Positions 21,516 to 61,216 of a stretch of 61,216 nt of DNA are shown in pieces. Under the pieces are notes generated by a model. It did no database searches and was not told the DNA's origin. It saw only the letters and a list, made by a program, of their open reading frames with translations. Every line of letters starts with the position of its first letter. Within the stretch, counting starts at the first letter, position 1. A program made the position numbers and the translations under genes. Origin of the DNA: Thermodesulfovibrionia bacterium (GTDB lineage: Bacteria > Nitrospirota > Thermodesulfovibrionia > UBA6902); assembly GCA_947259645.1 (NCBI GenBank), contig CAMYND010000034.1:1-61216 (forward strand), in the 5' to 3' direction.

Positions 21516-22781
21516 TCAGTCGTCTTTATCGCTGTCGTCTTCATCACTGTCATAATCATTATATCCTGATTGCTGATATCCTTTCTGGCTAGTGTAATTT
21601 TCCCTCTCAAAGCCGTTCCATAAACGGTTCTGATAGCTCCCTGACCTGAATATACGCTTGGCTTCATCTTCATCAGCGCTTGGATGACAGGCTGAGCAAT
21701 CCTGATAATTCCGGATACCTTCTTCCCGATGTTCTTCCTCTATATTGCCAGGTGAATGCTCATGGCAGCGATAGCAGGTGTATTCTCTATAATTATTATT
21801 TTGATGGCAGGCTGCGCAGTCAGGTCCGTGATGCTTATCAAAGCGGAAGTACTTTGCATGATCGAGGGTTGCCGGACGCCAGCGGTCCGTCGTATGACAT
21901 TGGTTGCAGTTCTGATTGCCGGTCTGATGCATATTGTCAAATGGACTTCTATGACAGGATATGCATTTATTAATGCTTCGGCTGTTCAGCGGACCGTGAG
22001 CGGGTTTTCTCTGCTCCTTTGATTGGAAAAATCCTCTCCCAGTCGCACTGTTTATCGAAGCATGCTGATCTCGGATTAATTTCAACATGCCTTTGGCTTC
22101 CCCAATGTTTCCGTTTTTATGGCACAAGATACAGTTTTGATAACTATTGATTCCCGATTTTTCATGTTCCTGCTCAACCTTTGCCTGCTGATGATTGTGG
22201 CATCCGTAGCAGGTGTATTCCTTATAATTATTGTTCTGATGACATGATGTGCAGTCAGCTAAGTGGTCTTTGTCAAAACTGAAGTATTTCGCGTGATCGA
22301 GGTTTGCCGGACGCCAGCGGTCCGGAGTATGACATTGGCTGCATTCCTGACTGTTCTTTACATGCAGATTATCAGCCGGCCCTTTATGGCATACCGTGCA
22401 CTGTTTCATATTTACCCCCTGAAGCAGGTCATGAGAAAGCTGACGATCTGCCTTGCCAATATTCCTTCCTTTATGGTCCGCGTGACAGGACAGGCATGAG
22501 TTCTTTGATACCTGTTGATGAAAGGCAGCCTTGCCCTGTCCGGTTTTTTTCTTAATCTTTGCACCGGCTGTCGTTACAATGCCGATCTCCGCAGGTTTGT
22601 GGCAGAATACACATTTTTCTACGGGAGTCCCGAAAAACATGGAATGACATTGCATACAGTTTTTTTCCAGATTCTTATGCCCTTCGGAAAGGTCCCCGGG
22701 ACTGACCATCTGTTTCGGAAACACGTAGATCAGCAGGACGGCAAGAATAAATATTATTGTTATGGTCGTTGTTTTTATCAT
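21516..22781 (-). CDS. Membrane-anchored 13-heme c-type cytochrome
   Basis: 421 residues from the ATG at 22781, which overlaps the stop of the upstream b-type cytochrome gene (TGATG). N-terminal signal anchor (TITIIFILAVLLIYVF). Thirteen CxxCH haem-binding motifs: CMQCH, CVFCH, CLSCH, CTVCH, CSQCH, CTSCH, CYGCH, CILCH, CISCH, CNQCH, CAACH, CYRCH, CSACH. Residues ~145-245 and ~300-395 are a clear internal duplication (QCHTPDRWRPANLDHAKYF versus QCHTTDRWRPATLDHAKYF, each followed by five-haem spacing). The acidic tail (DYDSDEDDSDKDD) is unusual. A periplasmic electron carrier; no oxidoreductase subunit is adjacent, so the electron acceptor or donor is not evident. Confidence 0.93.
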   Translation of the reverse strand: MIKTTTITIIFILAVLLIYVFPKQMVSPGDLSEGHKNLEKNCMQCHSMFFGTPVEKCVFCHKPAEIGIVTTAGAKIKKKTGQGKAAFHQQVSKNSCLSCHADHKGRNIGKADRQLSHDLLQGVNMKQCTVCHKGPADNLHVKNSQECSQCHTPDRWRPANLDHAKYFSFDKDHLADCTSCHQNNNYKEYTCYGCHNHQQAKVEQEHEKSGINSYQNCILCHKNGNIGEAKGMLKLIRDQHASINSATGRGFFQSKEQRKPAHGPLNSRSINKCISCHRSPFDNMHQTGNQNCNQCHTTDRWRPATLDHAKYFRFDKHHGPDCAACHQNNNYREYTCYRCHEHSPGNIEEEHREEGIRNYQDCSACHPSADEDEAKRIFRSGSYQNRLWNGFERENYTSQKGYQQSGYNDYDSDEDDSDKDD

Positions 22782-23413
22782 CAGTTCCATCTCCAGAATA
22801 AAAGTATTGTAATAATATGCAATGCGGCAGAAATGCAAAATATTATTGTGATAGGTTTATGTACGGATCTCCATTTCTTCATGGCCTTTACAGTTAATGA
22901 ATCCCAGAACAATTTCTTTTCAATGTCCTCATCCGATAATCCATCCCCGGCAAACCTGTCTTTCTTTGCGCTTAAGGTGTTCATTGATTTTATCAGCACA
23001 TATTTTCCAACTAGCCCGCTGCTCACAGCTACAAGCATTGCTGCAGCAGCGAGCCAGGCCAGAATAGCATTGACGTGAATGCCCCCATGGACGAGGACCA
23101 TCAGTGACCCGGTCCAGGCAAGGTATTCATGCATCCTCAGAAAGGTCTTCGGCTTTCCGAATGTAATGATCTTTTTTTTCCTGAGTGAGTATGCGAATGA
23201 AAGAATAATCAGAAGCGTCCCGAAAATTCCCAGATACCGCTCAATCCATATTGCCTGCGCAGAATGGAGGAGATAATCTATTGTCAGCGTAAGTGCTATC
23301 AGCCACACAAACCAGAGGACAAAGGGCCTGATATCATTTCGGAATACCGAATGATTTATGTGCTGCCCACTGCTTTTAGCCATTGTATTTAATGAATTAT
23401 CTAGCAAATACAT
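22781..23413 (-). CDS. b-type cytochrome membrane protein (cytochrome b561/ferric reductase-like)
   Basis: 210 residues, start at 23413 after GAGGTG. Five or so membrane segments with histidines placed as haem ligands: LRMHEYLAWTG, VLVHGGIHVN, RSVHKPITI and ALHIITILL. The arrangement resembles cytochrome b561 or ferric-reductase-like transmembrane proteins. It probably passes electrons between the quinone pool and the 13-haem cytochrome encoded next, whose start codon overlaps its stop. Confidence 0.8.
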   Translation of the reverse strand: MYLLDNSLNTMAKSSGQHINHSVFRNDIRPFVLWFVWLIALTLTIDYLLHSAQAIWIERYLGIFGTLLIILSFAYSLRKKKIITFGKPKTFLRMHEYLAWTGSLMVLVHGGIHVNAILAWLAAAAMLVAVSSGLVGKYVLIKSMNTLSAKKDRFAGDGLSDEDIEKKLFWDSLTVKAMKKWRSVHKPITIIFCISAALHIITILLFWRWN

Positions 23414-50081: not shown

Positions 50082-51020
50082 ATGCTCAGAATGCCAGAGA
50101 GGTTCATTACCGCAATTATTATGGTTATGGTGTTTTTTCTCCCCGACTCTACAGGCGCAGCTGATTTTATGATTATTCAGAACAAAGAGGTGAAGGTTCA
50201 GTTTGAAAAACCGCTGCGCTCCTCGGCCCTGGAGGTTATAAAACTCTATCCGATTGTAAAGAGTGAGCTGGAGCATACGTTTCAAACGCCCATTGATTTT
50301 CAGCCGACAATACGGTTGATCCAGAAGAGGAAAACTTTTCAGAAGGCAGTGGGAAGCAGCCATGCCATCGCAGTTGCCCTTCAGGGGTATGATCTTATCA
50401 TTATCGACAACTCTAAAATGAATGTTCATCCCTTCACTCTGGAAGCCACGCTGAAGCATGAACTCTGTCATCTTTTTCTCAGGCATCTCGTAAAAGGCGG
50501 GGACCTTCCGCGGTGGTTTAATGAAGGCCTGTCTCAATGGGTAAGCGGTGTACTCACAGAGATACTAATAGGAGAAAATAATGATATTCTGAAGCAGGCA
50601 GCATTATCGAACCGGTATATTCCGTTAAGAAGCTTATCCGTCAGCTTTCCCGGAGACTATACCAAACTTCAGCTCGCCTATCAGCAGAGCAGGAGCATTG
50701 TTGAATACATGGTAAAAGAGTATGGGGAAGATGGAGTCATGCAGGTCGTGGCCCGGTTAGGTAATGGCAGCGATATGAACAGTTCAGTCCTTGAGGCATT
50801 ATCTCTGTCTCTGGAGGAACTGGAGAAAAAGTGGCATGGGCATCTGAGAAAAAAATACACATGGTTTACCTACCTGAGCGCTCATCTTTATGAGATTCTT
50901 TTTTCGTTTGCGGCACTTGCCCTGACATACGGTTTTATAAAGGTGATGTTAAGAAAAAGGGCGTATAAAGACGAGGAGGAGGAGGGCGACGACCCTCAGG
51001 ATCACTTTTCCGATTCCTGA
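50082..51020 (+). CDS. Membrane-anchored metalloprotease-like protein (peptidase MA family)
   Basis: 312 residues. Signal peptide to ~26, then a gluzincin-type domain with LKHELCHLFLRH (HExxH) and FNEGLSQWVSG (the downstream glutamate), and a C-terminal membrane helix (ILFSFAALALTYGFIKV) with an acidic tail. Peptidase MA-like. Its 3' end overlaps the convergent sulfopyruvate decarboxylase gene by 19 bp. Confidence 0.85.
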   Translation: MLRMPERFITAIIMVMVFFLPDSTGAADFMIIQNKEVKVQFEKPLRSSALEVIKLYPIVKSELEHTFQTPIDFQPTIRLIQKRKTFQKAVGSSHAIAVALQGYDLIIIDNSKMNVHPFTLEATLKHELCHLFLRHLVKGGDLPRWFNEGLSQWVSGVLTEILIGENNDILKQAALSNRYIPLRSLSVSFPGDYTKLQLAYQQSRSIVEYMVKEYGEDGVMQVVARLGNGSDMNSSVLEALSLSLEELEKKWHGHLRKKYTWFTYLSAHLYEILFSFAALALTYGFIKVMLRKRAYKDEEEEGDDPQDHFSDS

Positions 51021-52138
51021 ATATATTCCATCACCTCTTTTTTATTGTCCAGGTGGTGGAGGGATATATTGGGGACTTTTTCGTTGCCGGGCAGTGCCAG
51101 AACATGAACAAACTTCATACCATCAGAGGGTGTTTTCAATGCCTCGATCATCTGTTTTTTGTCTGCAGCCGTGATTACCGTGGGAACACCAAAGCCCTCT
51201 GCAAGGAGAGCCAGGTTTACGCAGGACCCGGTCAGCGTTGGCTGCTCTCCTGTTGACCCGTACGAGCTGTTGTCGATCGCGTAGATGGTAAGATTTGGCG
51301 GATTGAAATGCGCTGCAGTCGCGAGCGTGCCCGGATTCATGAGAAGACTGCCGTCACCGTCTATGACAACCACCGCTTTTTCAGACGCAAGACTGATTCC
51401 GAGGCCGATCGGGGCAGCCATCCCCATGCTCCCCAGCATATAAAAATTTGAGGGCTGGTGCTTTACTGCAAATAACTCTTTGGAAGGTATGCCAAGGTTG
51501 CATACAATGACTTTGGAGTTGATCTCTTCAGAGATTGCTTGCAGTATCTCATAACGGGTAAGTTGCGGGGCCGGACTGGTCGCGGTATTTATTTTCTGCC
51601 TGTCCTTAACAGGGCAGACAGGAGGAGAAGCCATGGCAGTGTCGCAGATACCCTCAAAAACAGCCGGGCTGAGCAGAAACGCGTGTATCTCATTGTTCAG
51701 ATATATATCAGGGAGCTTTTGCTCGACAATACTCAGATCATCCGGTCTGGTTATCACGGAAAAACCGATCCCCGCACCTTTTAATATCCCGGGAAGCTTC
51801 AGGCCCATTGGCATCTGGGCTGCAATGGCTTCTTTATATATCCCTCTCTGGCTGACAAATATGGGAAGGGGCAGCTCATAGAATCCTGTAAGAGAGAGAA
51901 GAGCGTTTATCATGTTGCCGATGCCGGAACTCTGGACAAACATGCATGGCCTCTGTCCTGCGAGGGATATCCCTGCTGATATCCCTACACCCTCTTCTTC
52001 CCTCGTCAGGGGAATATGAAAAAACTCCTGTTTGACTTTCTCAAGAAGAAACTTGATTCTGTCGCAGGGGAGCGTGGAAACATAATCCACCCTGGTTTTT
52101 TTCAGAATCTCTATCAGCCTGTTTTCAGGAGAGTGCAT
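51002..52138 (-). CDS. comDE: Sulfopyruvate decarboxylase (fused alpha and beta, ComDE-like)
   Basis: 378 residues. Thiamine diphosphate enzyme that converts sulfopyruvate to sulfoacetaldehyde in coenzyme M biosynthesis. The N-terminal half (ComD-like, ~1-165) has E47-E49 in TREEEGVGISAG and FVQSSGIGNMINAL. The C-terminal half (ComE-like, ~190-378) has the cofactor motif GDGSLLMN at 261-268 with DNSSYGSTGEQ. In some methanogens ComD and ComE are separate genes; a fused form also occurs. Phosphonopyruvate decarboxylase is the close alternative by sequence, but the start overlaps a cysteate synthase gene by 25 bp, and no phosphonate gene is near. Last gene of the operon. Confidence 0.8.
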   Translation of the reverse strand: MHSPENRLIEILKKTRVDYVSTLPCDRIKFLLEKVKQEFFHIPLTREEEGVGISAGISLAGQRPCMFVQSSGIGNMINALLSLTGFYELPLPIFVSQRGIYKEAIAAQMPMGLKLPGILKGAGIGFSVITRPDDLSIVEQKLPDIYLNNEIHAFLLSPAVFEGICDTAMASPPVCPVKDRQKINTATSPAPQLTRYEILQAISEEINSKVIVCNLGIPSKELFAVKHQPSNFYMLGSMGMAAPIGLGISLASEKAVVVIDGDGSLLMNPGTLATAAHFNPPNLTIYAIDNSSYGSTGEQPTLTGSCVNLALLAEGFGVPTVITAADKKQMIEALKTPSDGMKFVHVLALPGNEKVPNISLHHLDNKKEVMEYIQESEK

Positions 52139-53370
52139 ACAAGCTCCTTTATTTCTTCACCTGACATATCCTTTGAAACAAATATCGGTTTGACTCGGTG
52201 AGCATTCATGTAGCTTTTCAGCCTCTTCTCTCCCCCGCCCGTAATATTCAGTAATATCGTATCATTTTTGTCAACATGTTTTTTTCTGACAGCCTCCTGA
52301 AGCGCGGCAACAGCTACCCCTGCAGCCGGTACGATATCTACTCCTTCTGTCTTTTCAAAGAGATCCATGGCTTCAAATACGTTTTCGTTTTCAATACCGT
52401 ACATTCTGCCCCCTGTTGCGGTAAGGGCATCATATATTCCTCCCTCTACGGAATAGGCAGGGTACCGTGTTGAAATGACCCTCGTAGTTATCTGCTCAAT
52501 AAGCTTCGGGTTCAGGTCTTTGCGGAAAAGTTTCCTGCTTCCGCTGTTCCAGGCTTTGACCATGGGGGCAAAAGGGAGGTTCTGTGCCAGATGCAGAACC
52601 GGCGCTTTTCCACCGTACCTGCCGTCAGCGAGGAACCTCTCTGCCATTTCCCAAATCGCAATTGCTCCTGTACCGCTGCCGACAGCCTGAAAATAGCGGT
52701 CAGGCAGCTTTCCCATCTTAGAGACGGCCTCAAGGAGTACAATACCCAGGCCGTCTCTTTTGGCGATATTATGTACGCCTCCTTCAAAGGGGTATCCTGT
52801 TTCATCGGCTATTCTCCGCGCCAGGTCTATAGCGTCAGAGTAGTCGCCTTCCTCAAGGGCAAGAGTCGGTATTTTCATGGATTTCTCAAGATACCACATC
52901 TCGAAAAGACACATCCGCGGCACAATAATTATCACCGGGAACCCGGTAACTGATGAGAGGTGGGCAAATGCCCTGGCAGTGTTGCCTGCAGAGGCAACAA
53001 TCATCCCCTTTATCCCGTTTTCACGGGCGTTGGCGAGCACCACTGCTGCTTCAAATTCCTTGAATGTGCAGGTCGTGATTTCTGCGCTGATCTCGGGCCA
53101 GTAGCCATTGAATGCTATAAATAAATTATCGAGTCCAAGGTGTTCCGAAAGCCCCTCAGACTGATACACTACCGGGCCCGGCTGTACAAATTGAGAATCA
53201 TGGACCGGCAGCCAGTTAAATCTCCGGACACCGGTCAGATCCTTTTCGTGGAAGTGTTTATCTTTGTAGCTGGTTACAAGAAGGGAATCACTGCAGTGCT
53301 CACCGAGAGAACAGAATGAGCTCTTCAGCGCAGTTCCGCATTTTCTGCATACCAGTTCATAATGGCTCAT
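52114..53370 (-). CDS. Cysteate synthase (threonine synthase fold)
   Basis: 418 residues, about the same as the Methanosarcina enzyme. PLP-dependent: makes L-cysteate from O-phosphoserine and sulfite. The PLP lysine is K104 in TCTFKEFEAAVV, not the SFKDRG of threonine synthase; VASAGNTARAFAH follows. An N-terminal zinc-like CRKCGTALKSSFC and C-terminal ILLNITGGGEKRL are also present. After transamination, cysteate yields sulfopyruvate, the substrate of the next enzyme in the operon. Threonine synthase is rejected because of the lysine motif and the neighbours. Its start overlaps the HdrD-like stop by 4 bp. Confidence 0.85.
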   Translation of the reverse strand: MSHYELVCRKCGTALKSSFCSLGEHCSDSLLVTSYKDKHFHEKDLTGVRRFNWLPVHDSQFVQPGPVVYQSEGLSEHLGLDNLFIAFNGYWPEISAEITTCTFKEFEAAVVLANARENGIKGMIVASAGNTARAFAHLSSVTGFPVIIIVPRMCLFEMWYLEKSMKIPTLALEEGDYSDAIDLARRIADETGYPFEGGVHNIAKRDGLGIVLLEAVSKMGKLPDRYFQAVGSGTGAIAIWEMAERFLADGRYGGKAPVLHLAQNLPFAPMVKAWNSGSRKLFRKDLNPKLIEQITTRVISTRYPAYSVEGGIYDALTATGGRMYGIENENVFEAMDLFEKTEGVDIVPAAGVAVAALQEAVRKKHVDKNDTILLNITGGGEKRLKSYMNAHRVKPIFVSKDMSGEEIKELVCTLLKTG

Positions 53371-54566
53371 ACCAGCTCCGCAATGAGCTCCATGATGTCC
53401 ACAATTTTGATTTTCCTGTCATGGCCTTTCATGGCCTCATTCACCTTTTCATAACAGGCAGGACAACTGAGCACCAGCTTATCAGCTCTTTTCTCAACAG
53501 CCTCGTTAATGGTAAGCCTTCCCATTGCAATGGCGTTTTCATGATGTACTTTGCGGGCCGCCCCTCCCGCGCCGCAGCAGCGGGAATTGACCCCATGCCG
53601 GTCAAATTCAAGAAGCTCTATCCCGGGAATGCTTCCCAGAATAGATCTCGGCTCAGCAATGATGCCAACACCTCTGCTCAAATAACAGGGGTCATGATAT
53701 ATGATTCTCTCTGTCAGTTTTTTCTTGATTTTTATACGGCCCTTTTTCAATTCATCATCTACATACTGGGTTATATGCCTGATCTTGAATGGTAGTTTCT
53801 TTCCGTAATATATCGGCCAGTCTCTCGCCATGATATTGACGCAGCAGGGGCATGAGCAGAGAAGTGTTTTAACCCCTTTTGCCTTGTATGCTGTTACGAG
53901 CCTGTCGGTCAGGTCTTTAAGCATGTCATGCTGACCCGTAATAAAGAGGGGAAAGCCGCAGCAGACCTCTTCCTCAGGAGGAAGCATGGTGAATGGTTTT
54001 CCGATTGCGTTCAGCACACGCACATCACCCTTTACCATCGGCTGTGCCTGATAGGCGCCAGTACAGCCCGCATAGTAGGCGATATCTGCGCTTTCTGCTA
54101 CCTGCACATCTCCCGGAAACCATGGGCTGTACCTCTTTTCCGGGGGTTCGTTATAGGGGTTCCCTGTCTCTTTTACGACCTTCGGCATATTCGCCTGCGG
54201 CCCTACAGGACCGAGCCCTCTCATGACCATCTCTTTCCGCAAAACAGGCCAGAGCCTCTGGTTAAAGAGCCCCACAGGGCAGTTCTGGCCGCAGGCCCCG
54301 CACACGGTGCATTCATACACGGCGTTTGTGAAGTCCTGGATCAGTTTCGGGTCAACATCTTTACCAAAGAGTGAAGACTTGATGCTGTCGGTCTCCCTCA
54401 TAAGTTTCTTGAACATGCGTATTTTTTCAGGAGGCGAGATTTCAGGCTTTCCTGTCACTTCCTGCACTGGGCAGTGTTTGAGACATTCTCCGCACTGTGT
54501 GCAGGCATCAAGTTCAATGCGCTGCAGTTGTGACAGCTCTTTGCCAAAGCATTTTTTACTTTTCAT
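53367..54566 (-). CDS. HdrD-like heterodisulfide reductase subunit (two 4Fe-4S, two CCG domains)
   Basis: 399 residues. N-terminal ferredoxin domain with C22-C25-C28-C32 (CTQCGECLKHCP) and C86-C89-C92-C96 (CTVCGACGQNCP). Then two CCG domains (DUF224): YYAGCTG ... EVCCGFP ... CSCPCC, and YHDPCYLSR ... CCGAGG ... LSCPACYEK. In HdrD these bind the noncubane clusters that cleave the CoM-S-S-CoB disulfide. In sulfate reducers similar proteins act on other disulfides. Here it is coded between an HdrE-like cytochrome b and cysteate synthase, overlapping both, so a disulfide containing the sulfonate thiol made by the operon is a plausible substrate. Confidence 0.88.
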   Translation of the reverse strand: MKSKKCFGKELSQLQRIELDACTQCGECLKHCPVQEVTGKPEISPPEKIRMFKKLMRETDSIKSSLFGKDVDPKLIQDFTNAVYECTVCGACGQNCPVGLFNQRLWPVLRKEMVMRGLGPVGPQANMPKVVKETGNPYNEPPEKRYSPWFPGDVQVAESADIAYYAGCTGAYQAQPMVKGDVRVLNAIGKPFTMLPPEEEVCCGFPLFITGQHDMLKDLTDRLVTAYKAKGVKTLLCSCPCCVNIMARDWPIYYGKKLPFKIRHITQYVDDELKKGRIKIKKKLTERIIYHDPCYLSRGVGIIAEPRSILGSIPGIELLEFDRHGVNSRCCGAGGAARKVHHENAIAMGRLTINEAVEKRADKLVLSCPACYEKVNEAMKGHDRKIKIVDIMELIAELV

Positions 54567-55242
54567 GGATCACCTTGTAAAGAGCCTGTTCACGCTTTCT
54601 TGCTTCAATAGTTGTCACCGGTGAAGCGATCAGGTGGAAGGGCAGAGAGGGTAATAGAACCAGAAATAATATGAAATGTACTGCGAAGAGCCTGCTCTCA
54701 GGAAGAGTGGCCGGGGCAGCTGTTACCATACCGAAAACAAAAGCTTTAGCATTCACCAGGTCAGTTCTGAAAAGGCTGGACATGAATATTCCCGTCAAAC
54801 TTGTCAGCATGAGCAACCCGACGAGAAAAAAATTGTATACGGACAGGTATCTGTCTTTCCCCCCGGTTAAACGTACAATCAGGATCAGGAGCAGGGATAG
54901 TGGCAGGATATATCCCGCTATCTTACCGGCCGGCTGGATAAAAACAATAAACCCGGGCACAGGATAAAGAACGTAACGCAGATGCCTGAGAAGCACCAGA
55001 AAGAACGACAGATGGAATGTCCATGAGGCAGCCCAGAGCAGTTTATTCGTGGCATAGACCCTTCTGAAAAAAAGGATATCGAGGAGCGCATTCCAGAGTA
55101 ATGATGGGGAGATTTTCCCGTTCACCAGGGGATCTGATGCCGGCTCTTTATCAGCGTTGATCCATGACCATATATGAGAAAAAAGCCTGATCAGGAATAG
55201 TATGAAAGCACAATATGCACTCAGTGTTAAAAAAAAACTCAT
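54556..55242 (-). CDS. HdrE/NarI-like membrane b-type cytochrome
   Basis: 228 residues, five membrane helices. Haem-ligand-type histidines in TFHLSFFLVLLRHLRYVL (in part) and FAVHFILFLVLLPSLPFHLIA (in part). NarI/HdrE family. Together with the HdrD-like subunit (genes overlap by 11 bp) it would link the quinone pool to disulfide reduction at the cytoplasmic face of the inner membrane. Confidence 0.85.
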   Translation of the reverse strand: MSFFLTLSAYCAFILFLIRLFSHIWSWINADKEPASDPLVNGKISPSLLWNALLDILFFRRVYATNKLLWAASWTFHLSFFLVLLRHLRYVLYPVPGFIVFIQPAGKIAGYILPLSLLLILIVRLTGGKDRYLSVYNFFLVGLLMLTSLTGIFMSSLFRTDLVNAKAFVFGMVTAAPATLPESRLFAVHFILFLVLLPSLPFHLIASPVTTIEARKREQALYKVIHEK

Positions 55243-55265
55243 CTTTTATATTAATACAAAAATTG

Positions 55266-55589
55266 TCACTCTTTCCTGTTATCCATAAACTCAATGTTTA
55301 CATTATCAGCCAGGCACAGACCAAGTTCAACCTCTGCAGCTTTCAATATTGCAGAGGGGACTGGACAGGCGGTATGCTTTAAATGCTTCGCAGCAGACCT
55401 GTACACAGGGTTGGTCTTGAAATCGGTAAAAAGACTTTTCATCTCTAGTATGGCGATATCATCCTGCATGTTCATGATCATTTCGCACTCTGTTTCAAGA
55501 GAGATCCGTACGCTCTTATCTTCTGTTTTTTCTGCTGTAATGACAACCGCATGCTTGCAATTACCGGCGTTTACTTTTACTTTTGTCAT
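55266..55589 (-). CDS. Small conserved protein (DUF6951-like)
   Basis: 107 residues. Starts MTKVKVNAGNCKHAVVITAEK and holds ETECEMIMNMQ, NPVYRSAAKHLKHTACPVPSAILKAAEVE (in part). Conserved Cys residues and a HLKH-x-ACPVP motif suggest metal or cluster binding. It resembles what I remember as DUF6951, seen near corrinoid methyl-transfer genes; that name is from memory and is not confirmed. Sits between the RACo-like activator and the HdrE-like subunit. Confidence 0.65.
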   Translation of the reverse strand: MTKVKVNAGNCKHAVVITAEKTEDKSVRISLETECEMIMNMQDDIAILEMKSLFTDFKTNPVYRSAAKHLKHTACPVPSAILKAAEVELGLCLADNVNIEFMDNRKE

Positions 55590-55603
55590 GGTATGTTCGT
55601 TTA

Positions 55604-57577
55604 TTAGCCTTTAATCTCTAGTTTACTCCCTGACTTCTGTAATAGCTCTTTCAGGTTCGGAAATTTATCTTTCATATGCGGAATATGCATTGCCTGCATG
55701 AACTCTTTTTCAAACGTCGGATCAGTCGCTATCTCAATAAACTCGACCCATCGTGCCTTGTCATTTGCCTCAACCCGCTTCCCTTTATTGAGCAAAGCCA
55801 TTCGTGCCCCGTCACCGGCTGCATTTCCCACAGCATATACCATGTCTATCGGACAGTCCGGAAACATCCCGAGGGTCAACGATGCTTCTGTACTGATATG
55901 GCTTCCGAATGCCCCTGCAAGGACTACGCGGTCAAGTTTGGACACTCCCAGCTTATTCATCATTAATTTAGCACCTGCGTACAGCGCGCCTTTTGCAAGC
56001 TGCAGCGCTCTGACATCCCCCTGGGTAATCGTGATATCAGTTCCGATGGATGTCTCTTCAGCCCATGCAAGGACATATTCCGGCTTTCCATCAACATCTT
56101 TCCTTACCCGCGGTGTATCGAGATCTTTCGCGAACCTGCCGGATTTATCTATGATGCCGGCCTTGAACATTTCTGCGACGACCTCTATAATCCCGGAGCC
56201 GCACAAACCCTTGGCATCAACTTTTTTAAGGTGCGAGTGCCAGTCAGTCTTTCCAATTACCTTGTATTTAGGCTCTTTTGTCTCAGGGTCAATCTGGACT
56301 ACCTCAATCGCTCCGGGTGCGGCCCTCATCCCGAACTTGATCTGGGCCCCTTCGAAGGCAGGGCCTGTTGCGCAGGATGTGGAACAGATTTTGTCCCTGT
56401 TTCCCAGGAGAAGCTCACCGTTGGTCCCGATGTCGATGACGAGGACCATTTCATCCTGTTTATACTGTTCTTCAGCAATAAGGACGCCAACATTGTCTGC
56501 ACCGACAAACCCCGCTTCTATCGGAAGCACATGTATGTATGCTGAAGGATTTATCTTTAGCCCTATGTCACGGGCCTTGATGTCCAGGGAATTCTGCACA
56601 GCCGGGATAAAGGGCGAGCGTCCGATATAAATAGGATTAAATCCGAGAAATATATGGTGCATGGCAGTATTGAAAACAATAGTCAGGTCGTCTATTGCAA
56701 AACCCGGATCAGGCCCGTCCTCTCTAATTTCAGAAACAACCTTGACTATTATCTCATTCAGCCCGTCTATGATGGCTCTGTGCATTTTATCGAGCCCGTC
56801 GTCATTGGTCATCGCGTAGGTAATGCGGGACATTACGTCCTCTCCATAGGGGACCTGGGGGTTCATCATTGATTCAGTGTTGACAACTTTGCCTGTTATC
56901 AAATCAGAGAGGTACCCGACGCAGGTAGTTGTCCCAATATCCACGGCAAGCCCATAGCATCGCTCCTCAAATCCGGGCTCCACCTTTATTATCTCTTTGT
57001 CCATCCATACAGTAACTGTGGCTTTCCAGTTACCCTGCCGTAAGACATCCTGCAGGCTCTTTAAGACGACAAAGTCAAAAGTAAGCCCCTTTAACCCATA
57101 GTCTTCCTCCAGAAACTTCAATACCCGTTCATAATCTCCGGTAGTCATGTCATGAAGCGTGGGTGCGGCGAGATCGATGTTGTACTTTCTCACTGCAGGG
57201 TCCAAAGCAATTGAAAGCTCCTTTGCTGCCTTGCGTACAACCTGCTTGCCTGCCCTGGAGCGCTCAGGGACAAAGATCTTGACATCACCGTGGACTTCTG
57301 CTGTGCAGGCAAGGCGTATTCCCGGCCCGTCCTCGGGTTTTATATGCTTTATTTCATCTTCTATAATAGGCGAGAGGTGGGACATTCCGGATTCCAGATT
57401 GTCTTTCTCAAAATAGCCTTCTTCTATTCGTACCTTGCACTTTCCGCATACTTTTTTGTTTCCGCATAATCCTTCGATGTCGACCCCGAGTGATTGGGCG
57501 GCTTCAAGTAATGTCTTTCCATCTTCTACTTCACCTCTACTTCCCGAAGGCTGAAATATTACCTTGTGCTTTTTCAT
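55604..57577 (-). CDS. Corrinoid protein reductive activator (RACo/ASKHA, 2Fe-2S)
   Basis: 657 residues. N-terminal 2Fe-2S ferredoxin domain (~1-95) with C38, C44, C47 (LCGNKKVCGKC) and a fourth Cys in RLACTAEV. Middle linker, then a large ASKHA ATPase domain (DUF4445; ~210-625) with VDIGTTTCVGYL, DIGTNGELLLG, CATGPAFEGAQI and GAFGSHIS. Such proteins use ATP to reduce inactive Co(II)-corrinoid to Co(I). Located three genes after the methyltransferase and one after the 4Fe-4S protein, so its target is probably the corrinoid protein of this operon. Confidence 0.93.
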   Translation of the reverse strand: MKKHKVIFQPSGSRGEVEDGKTLLEAAQSLGVDIEGLCGNKKVCGKCKVRIEEGYFEKDNLESGMSHLSPIIEDEIKHIKPEDGPGIRLACTAEVHGDVKIFVPERSRAGKQVVRKAAKELSIALDPAVRKYNIDLAAPTLHDMTTGDYERVLKFLEEDYGLKGLTFDFVVLKSLQDVLRQGNWKATVTVWMDKEIIKVEPGFEERCYGLAVDIGTTTCVGYLSDLITGKVVNTESMMNPQVPYGEDVMSRITYAMTNDDGLDKMHRAIIDGLNEIIVKVVSEIREDGPDPGFAIDDLTIVFNTAMHHIFLGFNPIYIGRSPFIPAVQNSLDIKARDIGLKINPSAYIHVLPIEAGFVGADNVGVLIAEEQYKQDEMVLVIDIGTNGELLLGNRDKICSTSCATGPAFEGAQIKFGMRAAPGAIEVVQIDPETKEPKYKVIGKTDWHSHLKKVDAKGLCGSGIIEVVAEMFKAGIIDKSGRFAKDLDTPRVRKDVDGKPEYVLAWAEETSIGTDITITQGDVRALQLAKGALYAGAKLMMNKLGVSKLDRVVLAGAFGSHISTEASLTLGMFPDCPIDMVYAVGNAAGDGARMALLNKGKRVEANDKARWVEFIEIATDPTFEKEFMQAMHIPHMKDKFPNLKELLQKSGSKLEIKG

Positions 57578-57598
57578 GTATACTTCTCCATTCAGACG

Positions 57599-58276
57599 TT
57601 AAATTATTTTCTTTTGAACCCTTGAATCCTCGACTACCCGGACTCTTTTATGCTCCTTCCGTCCATGAGGACAGATATTGATGCACAAGCCGCAATTCGG
57701 TTTGCCATTGACCCTCCTGCGTTCTTTCTTGTGATCCCTGCAATTCTGTAACCTGACAAGCTCGACGTATGGTTTTCTTCTGGACCATTTATTTCCGGTA
57801 ATTGCTCCTGAAGGACAATGCTCAACACACAATGTGCAGTCTCCGCAGAGGGTTGTAGTAATAGGCGTTCCTGTTTTCAGTGGCGCATCTGTCAGGACTG
57901 TTGCAAGGGACAGACGCGGACCGTGTTCCGGACTGATGAGAAGGCCGTTTCGCCCGATCCACCCGATACCGGCTGACGTTGCGGCCATTTTATGGGGGAA
58001 GAGAGGATAAAGCTTTGCGATGAAAGTATTCTTTATCCTGTCTGAGTCAGCCGGTATACTCAAATACTTAAAGCCTTCTTTTTTAAGAATAAGAACAGCC
58101 TTCCGTTTGAGGTTGCCCAGCAGGTGCACGGTGTTTTCATTGAGATTCCTGAAGACACCTATTGATATCGCCTTTGTCAGGTGGGCAATTTCGGGCTTCA
58201 GAAAATCTCCCACATCGGCAAAACCTACCACATCAGCTCCACCTTCAGTCAATGCCTTTCTGAGAAGGTCATTCAT
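57599..58276 (-). CDS. Short 4Fe-4S protein related to epoxyqueuosine reductase
   Basis: 225 residues. N-terminal half resembles QueG/RdhA-type folds (TSAGIGWIGRNGLLISPEHGPRLSL in part); C-terminal CGDCTLCVEHCPSGAI and CGLCINICPHG make two 4Fe-4S clusters. Shorter than QueG (~370) and without its cobalamin-binding part in full. It overlaps the corrinoid gene by one base (TAATG), which suggests it donates electrons to the activator or corrinoid. Confidence 0.8.
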   Translation of the reverse strand: MNDLLRKALTEGGADVVGFADVGDFLKPEIAHLTKAISIGVFRNLNENTVHLLGNLKRKAVLILKKEGFKYLSIPADSDRIKNTFIAKLYPLFPHKMAATSAGIGWIGRNGLLISPEHGPRLSLATVLTDAPLKTGTPITTTLCGDCTLCVEHCPSGAITGNKWSRRKPYVELVRLQNCRDHKKERRRVNGKPNCGLCINICPHGRKEHKRVRVVEDSRVQKKII

Positions 58277-58965
58277 TAACCTTTCTTTTTTTCAGCCTCT
58301 TCCTTTAATTTTTTCAGGGAGCTAATCATGTTTATCGCGTCCTTAAGTGCGTTGTTTGCATCAGCGGAATATCCGTCAGCACCCCATTTATCAGCTATGT
58401 CCGCTGATACAGGAGCGCCGCCTATCATTATTTTTATGTCCGGGTTCTTTGCCTTCAGATCATCGATTACCTTCTTCATGCCGACCATGGTTGTTGTCAT
58501 CATGGCAGAAAGGCAGACCAGGTCTGAGTCGGTCTTCATCTGTTCTTCAACGAACTTGTCCAGGGGAACATCCTTGCCAAGGTCGTATACCTGGAACCCG
58601 GCTACATCAAACATCATTTTGACAATGTTCTTTCCTATGTCATGAACATCACCTTCAACAGTACCGATAACAACAGATCCCTTTACTCCGAGGTCGAGCT
58701 GTGTTACATGAGGTTTTAATATGTCCAGCCCTACATAAAGAGCGTCAGCGCACATGAGAAGCTCCGGCACAAAATATTCCTGTGACTCGAAAAGTCTTCC
58801 CACTTCTTCCATGCCGCTCACCAGTCCGTTGAAGATGGCGTCATTCGGCTCAAGGCCTTCTTTCAGGGCTTCCTCAGCGCCTTCTTTGGAAGCGTCTTCG
58901 TCATACTGGATAACAGCCTCTTTTAGTTTTGCCAGTATCTCTTTTGTTTTTTCTTCTGTTGCCAT
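58276..58965 (-). CDS. Methyltransferase cognate corrinoid protein
   Basis: 229 residues after AGGAGG. Helical cap domain (~1-95; LVSGMEEVGRLFESQEYFVPELLMCADAL in part), then the B12-binding domain with H108 in EGDVHDIGKN, LSAMMTTTM and GGAPVSADIADKWGADGYS. Carries the methyl group on cobalt between methyltransferases. It lies 3 bp after the MtaA-like gene. Closest to MtbC/MtmC-type corrinoid proteins by layout. Confidence 0.95.
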   Translation of the reverse strand: MATEEKTKEILAKLKEAVIQYDEDASKEGAEEALKEGLEPNDAIFNGLVSGMEEVGRLFESQEYFVPELLMCADALYVGLDILKPHVTQLDLGVKGSVVIGTVEGDVHDIGKNIVKMMFDVAGFQVYDLGKDVPLDKFVEEQMKTDSDLVCLSAMMTTTMVGMKKVIDDLKAKNPDIKIMIGGAPVSADIADKWGADGYSADANNALKDAINMISSLKKLKEEAEKKKG

Positions 58966-58968
58966 AAA

Positions 58969-60003
58969 TTACCTCCTGTATTTTTTTACCTCGTCCATCA
59001 TTGCATGAAAGTTTTCCGGGGGTACTGTCGGCCAGATGTCGCATCCGGGCCAGACAGCATTCACTCCATTGTTCATACACTGTTTCATCGTTTCCCTGAC
59101 CAGGTCAGTTGTTCCTGATACAAGAATATTGTAGGGGTCGTAATTGCCAAATAACAGTGCGTCATCACCTATCTTTTTTCTGGTTTCAATGACGTCATTT
59201 TTCTGGTCCACACTGATGGCGCCTGCGCCGGACTCGACCATGAATCCGGCGATGTCATTGGTTTTGCCGCAAATGTGGATTACGCTGTCTTTCTTTAACT
59301 CCGCAAATATTTTTTTCAGATAGGGGAGGATCAGGTTTTTAAATACCCTCGGACTGAGCACGTCAGAGGTTGCCCCCATCTCCCGTACCGTTATGTAGTC
59401 GGCGCCCGCTTCTTCATATTCTTTCGCAATCACGATGAGTGCGTCTGCCATCATCTCAAGCAGCTTTCCTATCTTGTCCGGTTTTTTAAAGGACAGTTTC
59501 AGGAGAGTGTTCAGCTCCATAATCTGACCTGCCAGGGTGAATGGACCAAGAACGTGCGCGCCGATAGCAACGTCATTGCCTATGTCTTTCTTCAGAAGAC
59601 CGATGACCTCTTTCATCATCGACACCCTTCCCCTGGTTGCAAGGTCAGAGGGGAGCTGAATGTCTATTTCATCTTCAGTGTTAATCAGCTTTGTTTTGAT
59701 TGTCGGATAAAGAATATCCTCCAGATGGGAATATACATTAATCTCACATCCCAGTGCCTCAGCCTCAACGCAGAGGTCAAAGGGCACCACTGCACACTCG
59801 AAGCCGAATAATTTGTATGATGATGCCGCAGAGTCCGCCATCATTTGCGCGTTAGAATGTACCGCAGCGAATTTGTAGCCAAACTTTTTCAGCCCCTCTG
59901 CCGTGACATTTCCCATGCCGCTGAAACAGGGAGGCCTGTCAATCTCCTCACCGGCAAAGAGTTTAAGCACCCTTTCCCGTGATGTCATCGAGTTTTCTGT
60001 CAT
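58969..60003 (-). CDS. Methylcobamide:thiol methyltransferase, MtaA/MtbA-like (UroD superfamily)
   Basis: 344 residues after GGAGATG. UroD-type barrel with TSRERVLKLFAGEEIDRPP at the start. The zinc ligands known from MtaA/MtbA are all present: H243-x-C245 in HICGKT and C321 in PGCDIWP. Uroporphyrinogen decarboxylases lack this set. In methanogens the zinc binds and activates coenzyme M, which takes the methyl group from the corrinoid protein. Here the corrinoid gene is 3 bp downstream. The acceptor thiol is not proved; the operon's coenzyme M genes make coenzyme M the best guess. Confidence 0.85.
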   Translation of the reverse strand: MTENSMTSRERVLKLFAGEEIDRPPCFSGMGNVTAEGLKKFGYKFAAVHSNAQMMADSAASSYKLFGFECAVVPFDLCVEAEALGCEINVYSHLEDILYPTIKTKLINTEDEIDIQLPSDLATRGRVSMMKEVIGLLKKDIGNDVAIGAHVLGPFTLAGQIMELNTLLKLSFKKPDKIGKLLEMMADALIVIAKEYEEAGADYITVREMGATSDVLSPRVFKNLILPYLKKIFAELKKDSVIHICGKTNDIAGFMVESGAGAISVDQKNDVIETRKKIGDDALLFGNYDPYNILVSGTTDLVRETMKQCMNNGVNAVWPGCDIWPTVPPENFHAMMDEVKKYRR

Positions 60004-60070
60004 TTCATCTCCTTTATCATTTCCCTAGTGATCAGGGCGAGGCAGGGCCTGGCCCTCTGTTCATTTGACG

Positions 60071-61018
60071 TTATTTTCTTGCTGCTCCTGCAGCAAGTTT
60101 TTCAAGAAAGTCGCCAAAATATTTTCTGATCGGCAGATTGTCATTTTCAGGAATAACTTGTGTCTCATCATAAACAAGTGTGGAGAGAAGGATATGGGCT
60201 GTTGCAACAGCAGGGAAAATACGCGGTGCCGTAACAATAGGACCATAAAAGTTAAAGTCACTCCAGAGGACCGAAGACATTCCCTGTGCAACAGCGTCCA
60301 TTGCCTTGAAACCTTCCAGACCCCACACCTCTCTTGATTCTTTCCACATATGCGTCCCGTTAGAGTATGCGCCGCCGCAGGGGAGGCCTGTCTTGTCTTT
60401 AATTATTTTATTTGCCAGTAATGAGAATGATGTTGCCGGAAGGTTCATGACCGAGGTGTCAACGATAATGGTATCAAAACTGTCAGCTCCCTGCTCCAGG
60501 AGACTCTCCAGGGACTTGAGCCTGCCCGAAGGAGACTGGTCTTTATCATCAAATGCCTGCACAACAACATGTTTTATGCCGAGATCTTTTAATTTATTGA
60601 CCTGCCCTTTTATGTCTTTGTCCCAGGGAGTGATACTGTTATAAAGGAATTTGTCCTGCACTCCCAGTTTAGCGACATACTCGGTGGCCTTTGCCCTTTT
60701 TTCAGCAACCCACATGTCTATGCCGAAGGGCATATCTGTTGTCTCAAGAAAAAAATCAATATATATCTGGGCCTCATCAGCCGTATTAGCTACCATGGCT
60801 ACCATGGAAGGAATACCTGTGGAGGCAGAGAGTTCTTCCTGTTTTTTGATCAGTTCTTTTGCTCTTTCCCGGTCGAAATTGCCCTTTCTGTCCTGGAGGA
60901 TCCTGTCTTTGTTGTGAAACATGGACGCAATTTGAAGTGGAGGATGTTCTCCCGGCTGACCACCGACTTTGATTTTGTTCAGGTCGAAAACTTTTTGTTC
61001 TGTTTTAAAGTGAAACAT
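60071..61018 (-). CDS. MtrH/MtgA-family tetrahydropterin:corrinoid methyltransferase
   Basis: 315 residues after AAGGAG. MtrH family: GGQPGEHPPLQIASMF near the start, MVANTADEAQIYIDFF, SLESLLEQGAD, and GLPCGGAYSNGTHMWKE (in part). Its relatives transfer methyl between tetrahydrofolate or tetrahydromethanopterin and a corrinoid protein (MtrH in methanogens, MtgA in glycine betaine users). It would join the operon's corrinoid protein to the one-carbon pool. Confidence 0.9.
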   Translation of the reverse strand: MFHFKTEQKVFDLNKIKVGGQPGEHPPLQIASMFHNKDRILQDRKGNFDRERAKELIKKQEELSASTGIPSMVAMVANTADEAQIYIDFFLETTDMPFGIDMWVAEKRAKATEYVAKLGVQDKFLYNSITPWDKDIKGQVNKLKDLGIKHVVVQAFDDKDQSPSGRLKSLESLLEQGADSFDTIIVDTSVMNLPATSFSLLANKIIKDKTGLPCGGAYSNGTHMWKESREVWGLEGFKAMDAVAQGMSSVLWSDFNFYGPIVTAPRIFPAVATAHILLSTLVYDETQVIPENDNLPIRKYFGDFLEKLAAGAARK

Positions 61019-61032
61019 GCAATCTCCTTAAG

Positions 61033-61090
61033 GTAGGGGCACGGCATGCCGTGCCCTTACGAGTTTGTCAGGGCAATTCATGAATTGCCC
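61033..61090. repeat. REP-like palindromes, second locus
   Basis: A GGGGCACGGC/GCCGTGCCC palindrome at 61033-61060 and an AATTCATGAATT-centred one at 61071-61090. They are related to the pair at 5651-5730 and lie in the gap between the first two genes of the methyl operon. Confidence 0.6.
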
Positions 61091-61104
61091 CTTCGAACGA
61101 TTAT

Positions 61105-61216
61105 TTAGAAAATGCCGTGGTCGAACTTTGGCTGCGGCAGGTACTCCCACTCTTCACCCTTGTTGAACTTGGCCTCAATATCCAGGCACTTCAGGGCATA
61201 TTCAAACGCATAGGGA
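61105..61216 (-). CDS. C-terminal fragment of unidentified protein
   Basis: Only the last 36 residues are inside the window, beginning PYAFEYALKCLDIEAKF and ending QPKFDHGIF before the stop at 61105-61107. The family cannot be named from this. It is upstream of the MtrH-like gene in the same direction and probably part of the operon; a substrate methyltransferase or other one-carbon enzyme would fit. Confidence 0.7.
   Translation of the reverse strand, partial: PYAFEYALKCLDIEAKFNKGEEWEYLPQPKFDHGIF

Follow-up and report, generated by a model that had tools for sequence, protein, structure and literature searches.

The DNA analysed here takes in the end of contig C34 (CAMYND010000034.1) in the draft genome of a Thermodesulfovibrionia bacterium of the phylum Nitrospirota (3.41 Mb, 99.6% complete); the whole stretch, 61,216 nucleotides long, is referred to as the window. 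An original prediction described ten leftward genes at its right-hand end, separated by gaps of less than 70 bp or overlapping, that would join coenzyme M (CoM) biosynthesis, corrinoid-dependent methyl transfer and an HdrDE-like complex in one bacterial operon. The features of this operon inside the window are as follows, in the order of transcription.

61105..61215, minus strand: 3' end (36 codons and stop) of a CMD/AhpD-like gene, the first operon gene inside the window (PF02627 in relatives)
60071..61018, minus strand: MtrH/MtgA-type methyl-tetrahydrofolate:corrinoid methyltransferase (NF002142, PF02007)
58969..60003, minus strand: MtaA/MtbA-type (UroD superfamily) corrinoid:thiol methyltransferase (NF004889, TIGR01463; PDB match 4ay7)
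58276..58965, minus strand: corrinoid methyl-carrier protein (PF02607 and PF02310; TIGR02370)
57599..58276, minus strand: short QueG/reductive-dehalogenase-type 2x[4Fe-4S] protein (C-terminal part of TIGR02486/TIGR00276, PF13484)
55604..57577, minus strand: RACo/AcsV-type corrinoid reductive activator (PF14574, PF17651, PF17650, PF00111)
55266..55589, minus strand: DUF6951 protein (PF22263, 102.7 bits)
54556..55242, minus strand: HdrE/DsrM/NarI-like membrane cytochrome b subunit (NF038037, 55 bits, far under cut-off)
53367..54566, minus strand: HdrD-like putative disulfide reductase catalytic subunit (two PF02754, PF13183)
52114..53370, minus strand: cysteate synthase, CysS, predicted to convert phosphoserine and sulfite to cysteate (TIGR03844; tree)
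51002..52138, minus strand: fused ComDE-type sulfopyruvate decarboxylase, a thiamine pyrophosphate enzyme (TIGR03845/TIGR03846; tree)

The ten complete open reading frames between 51002 and 61018, from MtrH to ComDE, were all confirmed at the positions predicted, with gaps of 67, 3, 21, 14 and 23 bp and overlaps of 1, 11, 4 and 25 bp. The family assignments agreed with the profile matches; what had been called a small conserved protein is DUF6951, and the short Fe-S protein corresponds to the C-terminal half of the QueG/reductive dehalogenase family, with eight invariant cysteines. The operon extends upstream beyond the window. Contig C34 breaks off at 61216 within the operon's 11th gene, CMD/AhpD-like; the 5' part of this gene is found at one end of another contig of this genome, C96, behind a 12th gene that encodes a second MtaA-like methyltransferase. 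The operon thus comprises at least 12 genes. The ten genes presumably form one transcript.

The cysteate synthase scored 456.9 bits against TIGR03844 (equivalog cut-off 324.9), and the alpha domain of ComDE scored 171.5 bits against a sulfopyruvate decarboxylase cut-off of 148. A firm phylogenetic placement of these two genes with threonine synthase and phosphonopyruvate decarboxylase (Ppd) would have refuted the original prediction; instead, they grouped with archaeal CoM enzymes. In the cysteate synthase tree (43 rows), the Nitrospirota sequences clustered in a single clade (100/100) whose sister group was Hydrothermarchaeota (94/94); Methanosarcinales and Bacteroidota belonged to the same set, and the longest branch (100/100) split off four threonine synthases. 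In the ComDE tree (35 rows), the protein grouped with the fused ComDE of Hydrothermarchaeota and the concatenated ComD/ComE of methanogens, and twelve Ppd proteins of the same phylum, all over their family cut-off, stood apart (100/100). Both trees were rooted on chosen outgroups and therefore show separation, not polarity. The fused ComDE is 47-50% identical to that of Hydrothermarchaeota, the order of the CysS-ComDE gene pair is kept across both domains, and in methanogens CysS, ComD and ComE are clustered with a gene like MMP16 (COG1900), the CoM synthase family. The Ppd model gave no match in the source genome at E<=1e-60. As far as sequence can say, the two genes encode archaeal-type CoM enzymes, and a bacterial route to sulfoacetaldehyde within a CoM-type methyl-transfer operon is well supported. 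In Bacteroidota (loci L110, L113 and others), homologs of cysteate synthase share about 41-46% identity, have no ComDE match beside them and possibly serve sulfonolipid synthesis; two Odoribacter genomes with such homologs also carry a COG1900 protein.

Cysteate synthase exceeded its curated cut-off in 59 of 396 genomes sampled across the phylum, mostly from the same class as the source, and its close matches came from Nitrospirae/Nitrospirota, Thermodesulfovibrionia and Thermodesulfovibrio. We surveyed gene order in 40 related loci. All ten families were found in the same order, on one strand and within 20 kb in 27 of them, and at least eight families in 32; the three modules that the original prediction had joined therefore form one conserved cluster, whose grouping goes beyond chance because the same ten genes recur in the same order. 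ComDE lies directly downstream of cysteate synthase in 37 loci. The majority of the incomplete loci are broken at contig ends, and in one family (f18; L042, L050 and L070) the cluster is split. The second MtaA-like and CMD-like genes upstream are conserved as well, with full-length CMD/AhpD-like homologs in 24 loci. The operon was found in two single-contig genomes (G152 and G274) and is thus no binning artefact. FolD, a tetrahydrofolate (H4folate) enzyme, is encoded between DUF6951 and HdrE in seven loci, which indicates H4folate as the one-carbon carrier. In several genomes a methyl-accepting chemotaxis signalling protein is encoded in or beside the operon (L063:5988-7529, L068:5908-7458, L051:13337-14794 and L044:3-1709), suggesting a chemosensor for the pathway substrate.

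A counterpart of the operon was observed in the other domain. In 'Ca. Pyrohabitans jungbluthii' JdFR-16 (Hydrothermarchaeota), nine operon homologs lie within one 20 kb stretch: the second MtaA-like protein (UroD2; 45% identity), CMD-like (62%), HdrD (40%), MtaA (54%), the corrinoid protein (63%), RACo (62%), MtrH (45%), HdrE (36%) and DUF6951 (31%). The genes for CysS, ComDE and a third protein resembling solute-binding proteins (SBP-like, described below) are located outside this stretch. That so similar a set is found both in bacteria and in archaea provides the best argument for the parts being members of one pathway. The alpha subunit of methyl-coenzyme M reductase (MCR) was found in none of 35 Nitrospirota and none of four Hydrothermarchaeota genomes by a search that recovered it in all seven methanogens. 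Carr and colleagues noted that Hydrothermarchaeota have mtrH but no mcr, and proposed that methyl-CoM meets a different fate there (PMC6775978).

In the methyl-transfer module, MtrH scored 333 bits against NF002142 (subfamily cut-off 287), and the corrinoid protein matched TIGR02370 with 208 bits, H108 of its B12-binding motif being invariant. MtaA exceeded the cut-offs of NF004889 and TIGR01463, the MtaA/CmuA and methylcobalamin:CoM methyltransferase subfamilies, reached 249 bits of a 400 cut-off and 185 bits of a 600 cut-off in the MtaA/MtbA equivalog models, and had MtaA 4ay7 as its best PDB match (E 9e-48). Its zinc-site residues H243, C245 and C321 are invariant in 41 sequences, and the second MtaA-like protein has a His-Cys-Cys zinc site as well; Kountz and Balskus linked this site to S/Se-methyltransferases (PMC10418091). 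With a single corrinoid protein standing between MtrH and MtaA, the module is most plainly read as a methyl-H4folate:thiol methyltransferase. We slightly prefer a methyl flow from methylated sulfur compounds via CoM into H4folate, because we know here of no enzyme that consumes methyl-CoM and because the second MtaA-like protein could load CoM; in the opposite direction, methyl-CoM would be made from methyl-H4folate. The short QueG-like protein might donate electrons for corrinoid reactivation.

DUF6951 tracked the operon (14 of 14 genomes with it, 0 of 21 without), with C11, C35, H72 and C75 invariant. Its AlphaFold2 model (predicted local distance difference test, pLDDT, 93.5) gave weak but coherent Foldseek matches to IscU, SufU, SufE and CsdE (probability at most 0.91, best E 0.13), and the succession Cys, strand pair, Cys, helix, His-x-x-Cys, helix recalls IscU. 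The family also occurs in methylotrophic methanogens, several with 2-4 copies, and is absent from two Methanothrix genomes and M. jannaschii; from this distribution, DUF6951 tracks corrinoid/CoM methyltransferases. A role as CoM synthase was set aside on the same grounds, Methanothrix and M. jannaschii requiring CoM and methylotrophic methanogens having multiple copies. With low confidence, we suggest that DUF6951 may serve the methyl-transfer system as a scaffold for Fe-S clusters or as a sulfur carrier. In Methanomethylophilaceae/Methanomassiliicoccaceae (L219, L225; G403:C5, G404:C176), DUF6951 genes share a contig with an MCR alpha match no more than 2-3 kb away. A 108-aa reading frame before cysteate synthase in Methanohalophilus, considered as a DUF6951 candidate, was rejected as a helix-turn-helix-like protein.

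The HdrD-like protein carries the ferredoxin-type CxxCxxCxxxC cluster twice, as well as two complete CCG motifs, Cx(n)CCx(n)CxxC, with invariant motif cysteines, and the HdrE-like protein has H77, H87, H189 and H203 invariant in 43 sequences; HdrD-like matches to known HdrB structures are weak in sequence. The pair is likely a quinone-linked disulfide reductase and, judged by its motifs and gene neighbours, likely a CoM disulfide reductase. The recycling of CoM disulfide that had been predicted for it thus has two complete CCG motifs and a cytochrome b partner in its favour, with action on that disulfide not yet upheld. Alternatively, the pair could be a DsrMK/menaquinol electron module serving corrinoid reactivation or another acceptor, a role compatible with our preferred explanation; its best NCBIfam matches are TfrB, LdhH, DsrK and DsrM, none of which reaches the cut-off. 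We regard this as possible but doubtful, given that the HdrD-like subunit has both CCG motifs complete and without variation, as HdrD/HdrB disulfide reductases do, and that the HdrDE-like genes stand directly upstream of the CoM genes.

From the computed family memberships, gene orders, co-occurrences and absences of MCR and COG1900, we infer the reactions, the thiol and a methyl exchange between H4folate and CoM. Cysteate synthase would join phosphoserine and sulfite into cysteate, which a putative housekeeping aminotransferase would convert to sulfopyruvate; generic aspartate aminotransferases suffice for the transamination of cysteate. The fused ComDE would then yield sulfoacetaldehyde, and a sulfur-inserting step would give HS-CH2-CH2-SO3- (CoM) or a closely similar sulfonate thiol. 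Acting one after the other, MtrH, the corrinoid protein and MtaA would amount to a soluble methyl-H4folate:CoM methyltransferase that parallels archaeal Mtr but does not pump, with RACo keeping the corrinoid active, perhaps with the QueG-like Fe-S protein and DUF6951. The upstream second MtaA-like protein might connect methyl-CoM or the corrinoid to another S-methyl compound, and the HdrDE-like pair might couple the CoM thiol/disulfide to the quinone pool. We consider it probable, short of firm, that the operon makes and uses a CoM-type thiol in an anaerobic bacterium.

Several points weigh against this proposal. The CoM synthase family MMP16/COG1900 was found in none of 60 Nitrospirota genomes, the source included, and in none of the four Hydrothermarchaeota with CysS-ComDE, the same search being positive in all six methanogens and in named methanogen controls; weak 'MMP16' matches in the source genome covered only the ferredoxin part of the model and were rejected. 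Since this is the sole known last-step family, the prediction that the bacterium makes CoM stands for the archaeal-type cysteate synthase and ComDE and is not yet upheld for CoM as the end product. The beta (ComE) half of ComDE scored 212 bits, just short of its curated cut-off of 221.5. HdrD/HdrE-like pairs such as DsrMK, TmcB and GlpC frequently act on substrates other than CoM, and to our knowledge no reaction yields CoM heterodisulfide without MCR. Moreover, MtaA-like proteins are widespread in bacteria, some apparently acting on Se/S compounds (PMC10418091).

The search for the step from sulfoacetaldehyde to CoM, which the original prediction had suggested, did not recover MMP16 and led instead to a co-occurring candidate. 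In the four Hydrothermarchaeota, a gene for an SBP-like protein of 301-303 aa follows comDE immediately with an overlap of about 10 bp, and many Nitrospirota loci have a homolog a few kb or less from CysS-ComDE; in the source genome, the protein is encoded on contig C66 (3823-4728). By sequence, it falls close to binding proteins for aliphatic sulfonates and taurine (TIGR01728; TauA and SsuA in PDB); it begins at the mature domain (MxIRIGHLSTFYHT) with no visible signal peptide, and has strongly conserved GHLSTxYHT, KCxAGGH, GSIHD and SPxYCA motifs; its AlphaFold model (pLDDT 91) had sulfonate-binding proteins as its best matches, followed by Thi5, which is an enzyme with this fold. Among Nitrospirota, it is present in 42 of 44 genomes with cysteate synthase versus 0 of 28 without (Fisher p 6e-18, the genomes not being independent), and it follows the cysteate synthase state within at least seven mixed families (f1, f6, f7, f9, f13, f14 and f25). 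Because MMP16 is absent, sulfur insertion is most likely due to the SBP-like protein or to reaction with sulfide. We propose that this cytosolic protein may supply the sulfur-inserting step in place of MMP16; its role might instead be to bind, sense or channel a sulfonate. The last step could also be a reaction between sulfoacetaldehyde and sulfide without a catalyst, as has been discussed (PMC12068725).

The two cysteate-synthase-positive genomes lacking the cytosolic form (G203 and G334) have only a distant secreted-type relative. In G334, this secreted-type sulfonate-binding protein is encoded between HdrD and cysteate synthase (L060:6708-7751) with no adjacent ComDE match, and perhaps this genus imports the sulfonate instead of making it. 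Close homologs of the SBP-like protein in the methylotrophic methanogens Methanococcoides, Methanolobus and Methanohalophilus (L203:10216-11124, L204:8812-9720 and L205:9612-10526) lie among genes of assimilatory sulfate reduction and sulfur carriers, with CysD, CysN, sulfite/APS-reductase-like, ThiS-like, MoeB-like and threonine-synthase-like neighbours; at least one of these methanogens (Methanolobus, G401) also has COG1900 proteins. Selenocysteine, suspected from TGA/TAA codons in the SBP-like genes of five genomes, was rejected when the frames were read, the codons being ordinary C-terminal stops.

A different end for the sulfonate branch would account for the lack of COG1900: it could stop at sulfoacetaldehyde or lead to another sulfonate (taurine, isethionate or a modified one), with methyltransferases that use a different thiol and a co-location that reflects shared sulfur physiology. 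Bacteroidota and other groups do often have cysteate synthase homologs with no ComDE match next to them, the cysteate there being used for other purposes, namely sulfonolipids. However, 27 of the 40 loci combine cysteate synthase and ComDE in one operon with genes for an MtaA-type S-methyltransferase and for an HdrDE-type reductase, the methanogen CysS, ComD, ComE and MMP16-like genes adjoin one another, and the CysS-ComDE pair is that used for CoM in Methanosarcina (PMC12068725); we therefore judge this alternative unlikely. The operon could also be a variant type 1 mlp cluster, in which MtaA-like proteins would demethylate methyl-S/Se compounds via a corrinoid protein to H4folate without CoM. 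Several MtaA-like proteins with a corrinoid protein and RACo form the core of such clusters, and the His-Cys-Cys site is found in both MtaA-like proteins here; however, the first-described type 1 clusters are without an H4folate methylase, the paper is silent on cysteate synthase, CoM biosynthesis and MtrH (PMC10418091), and CysS-ComDE is a member of the operon that follows the cluster across the class, which makes this improbable. That the biosynthesis genes are a threonine synthase and a Ppd, despite shared folds and a Ppd model score of 185 bits, is contradicted by the trees and cut-offs and by two further threonine-synthase-like genes in the genome, and is very improbable indeed.

Elsewhere in the window, an apparent multihaem c-type cytochrome with repeated CxxCH motifs (21516-22838) adjoins a cytochrome-b-like membrane protein (22781-23413).

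A 2025 listing of CoM pathways has three entries, of which methanogens account for two and aerobic bacteria that degrade alkenes for the third (PMC12068725). The operon resembles the type 2 (phosphoserine/cysteate) route of Methanosarcina (PMC12068725) in its adjacent cysteate synthase and ComDE and in their tree grouping, but is bacterial, has a fused ComDE and is without MMP16/COG1900 and MCR. As had been predicted, the route is distinct from that of Xanthobacter autotrophicus Py2 (XcbB1-E1), which is likewise CoM synthesis by a bacterium but has other starting steps and enzymes, belongs to aerobic alkene/epoxide metabolism and has no corrinoid or Hdr partners; XcbB1/ComA-like and XcbC1-E1 genes were absent from the operon, the rest of the genome not having been searched for them. 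The soluble MtaA/MtbA/MtsA systems with MtaC-type corrinoid proteins and Ram/RACo share families, the His-Cys-Cys zinc site and operon logic, whereas here MtrH, on the H4folate side, replaces the methanol/methylamine methyltransferase and there is no methanogenesis. Type 1 mlp clusters of anaerobic bacteria share several MtaA-like proteins, a corrinoid protein and RACo, but no MtrH or CoM biosynthesis genes were reported in them (Kountz and Balskus 2023, PMC10418091). The HdrDE/DsrMK/TmcBC membrane modules likewise combine a CCG and ferredoxin subunit with a cytochrome b subunit, whereas the pair here falls below all equivalog cut-offs and is embedded in a CoM/methyl operon. Methyl cycling without mcr in Hydrothermarchaeota shares mtrH-type genes and the lack of MCR, and the available passages of that study describe no CoM biosynthesis genes, SBP-like protein or shared package (PMC6775978). 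A literature search on CoM in Thermodesulfovibrionia, DUF6951 and CoM biosynthesis outside methanogens, which left most subscription papers outside its reach, returned no account of such a system.

Beyond the original prediction, our analysis adds the start of the operon upstream of the window, its class-wide spread, an MCR-less archaeal lineage with the package and two further co-travelling proteins of unknown function. More tentatively, and as a possibility rather than a probability, we suggest that Nitrospirota and Hydrothermarchaeota share a methane-independent CoM metabolism, with the cysteate route, a new type of CoM synthase with the SBP fold, an H4folate/tetrahydromethanopterin-CoM shuttle via MtrH, corrinoid protein and MtaA, and a membrane Hdr. 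The SBP-like protein is a concrete candidate for a new CoM synthase. If the proposal is true, the archaeal phosphoserine route to CoM would operate in anaerobic bacteria, coupled to H4folate and without methane chemistry, and would be class-wide in largely uncultured Nitrospirota and common to an archaeal lineage. It would thus bear on the fate of methyl-CoM without MCR, a question raised for Hydrothermarchaeota (PMC6775978), and on the spread of 'methanogen' cofactors.

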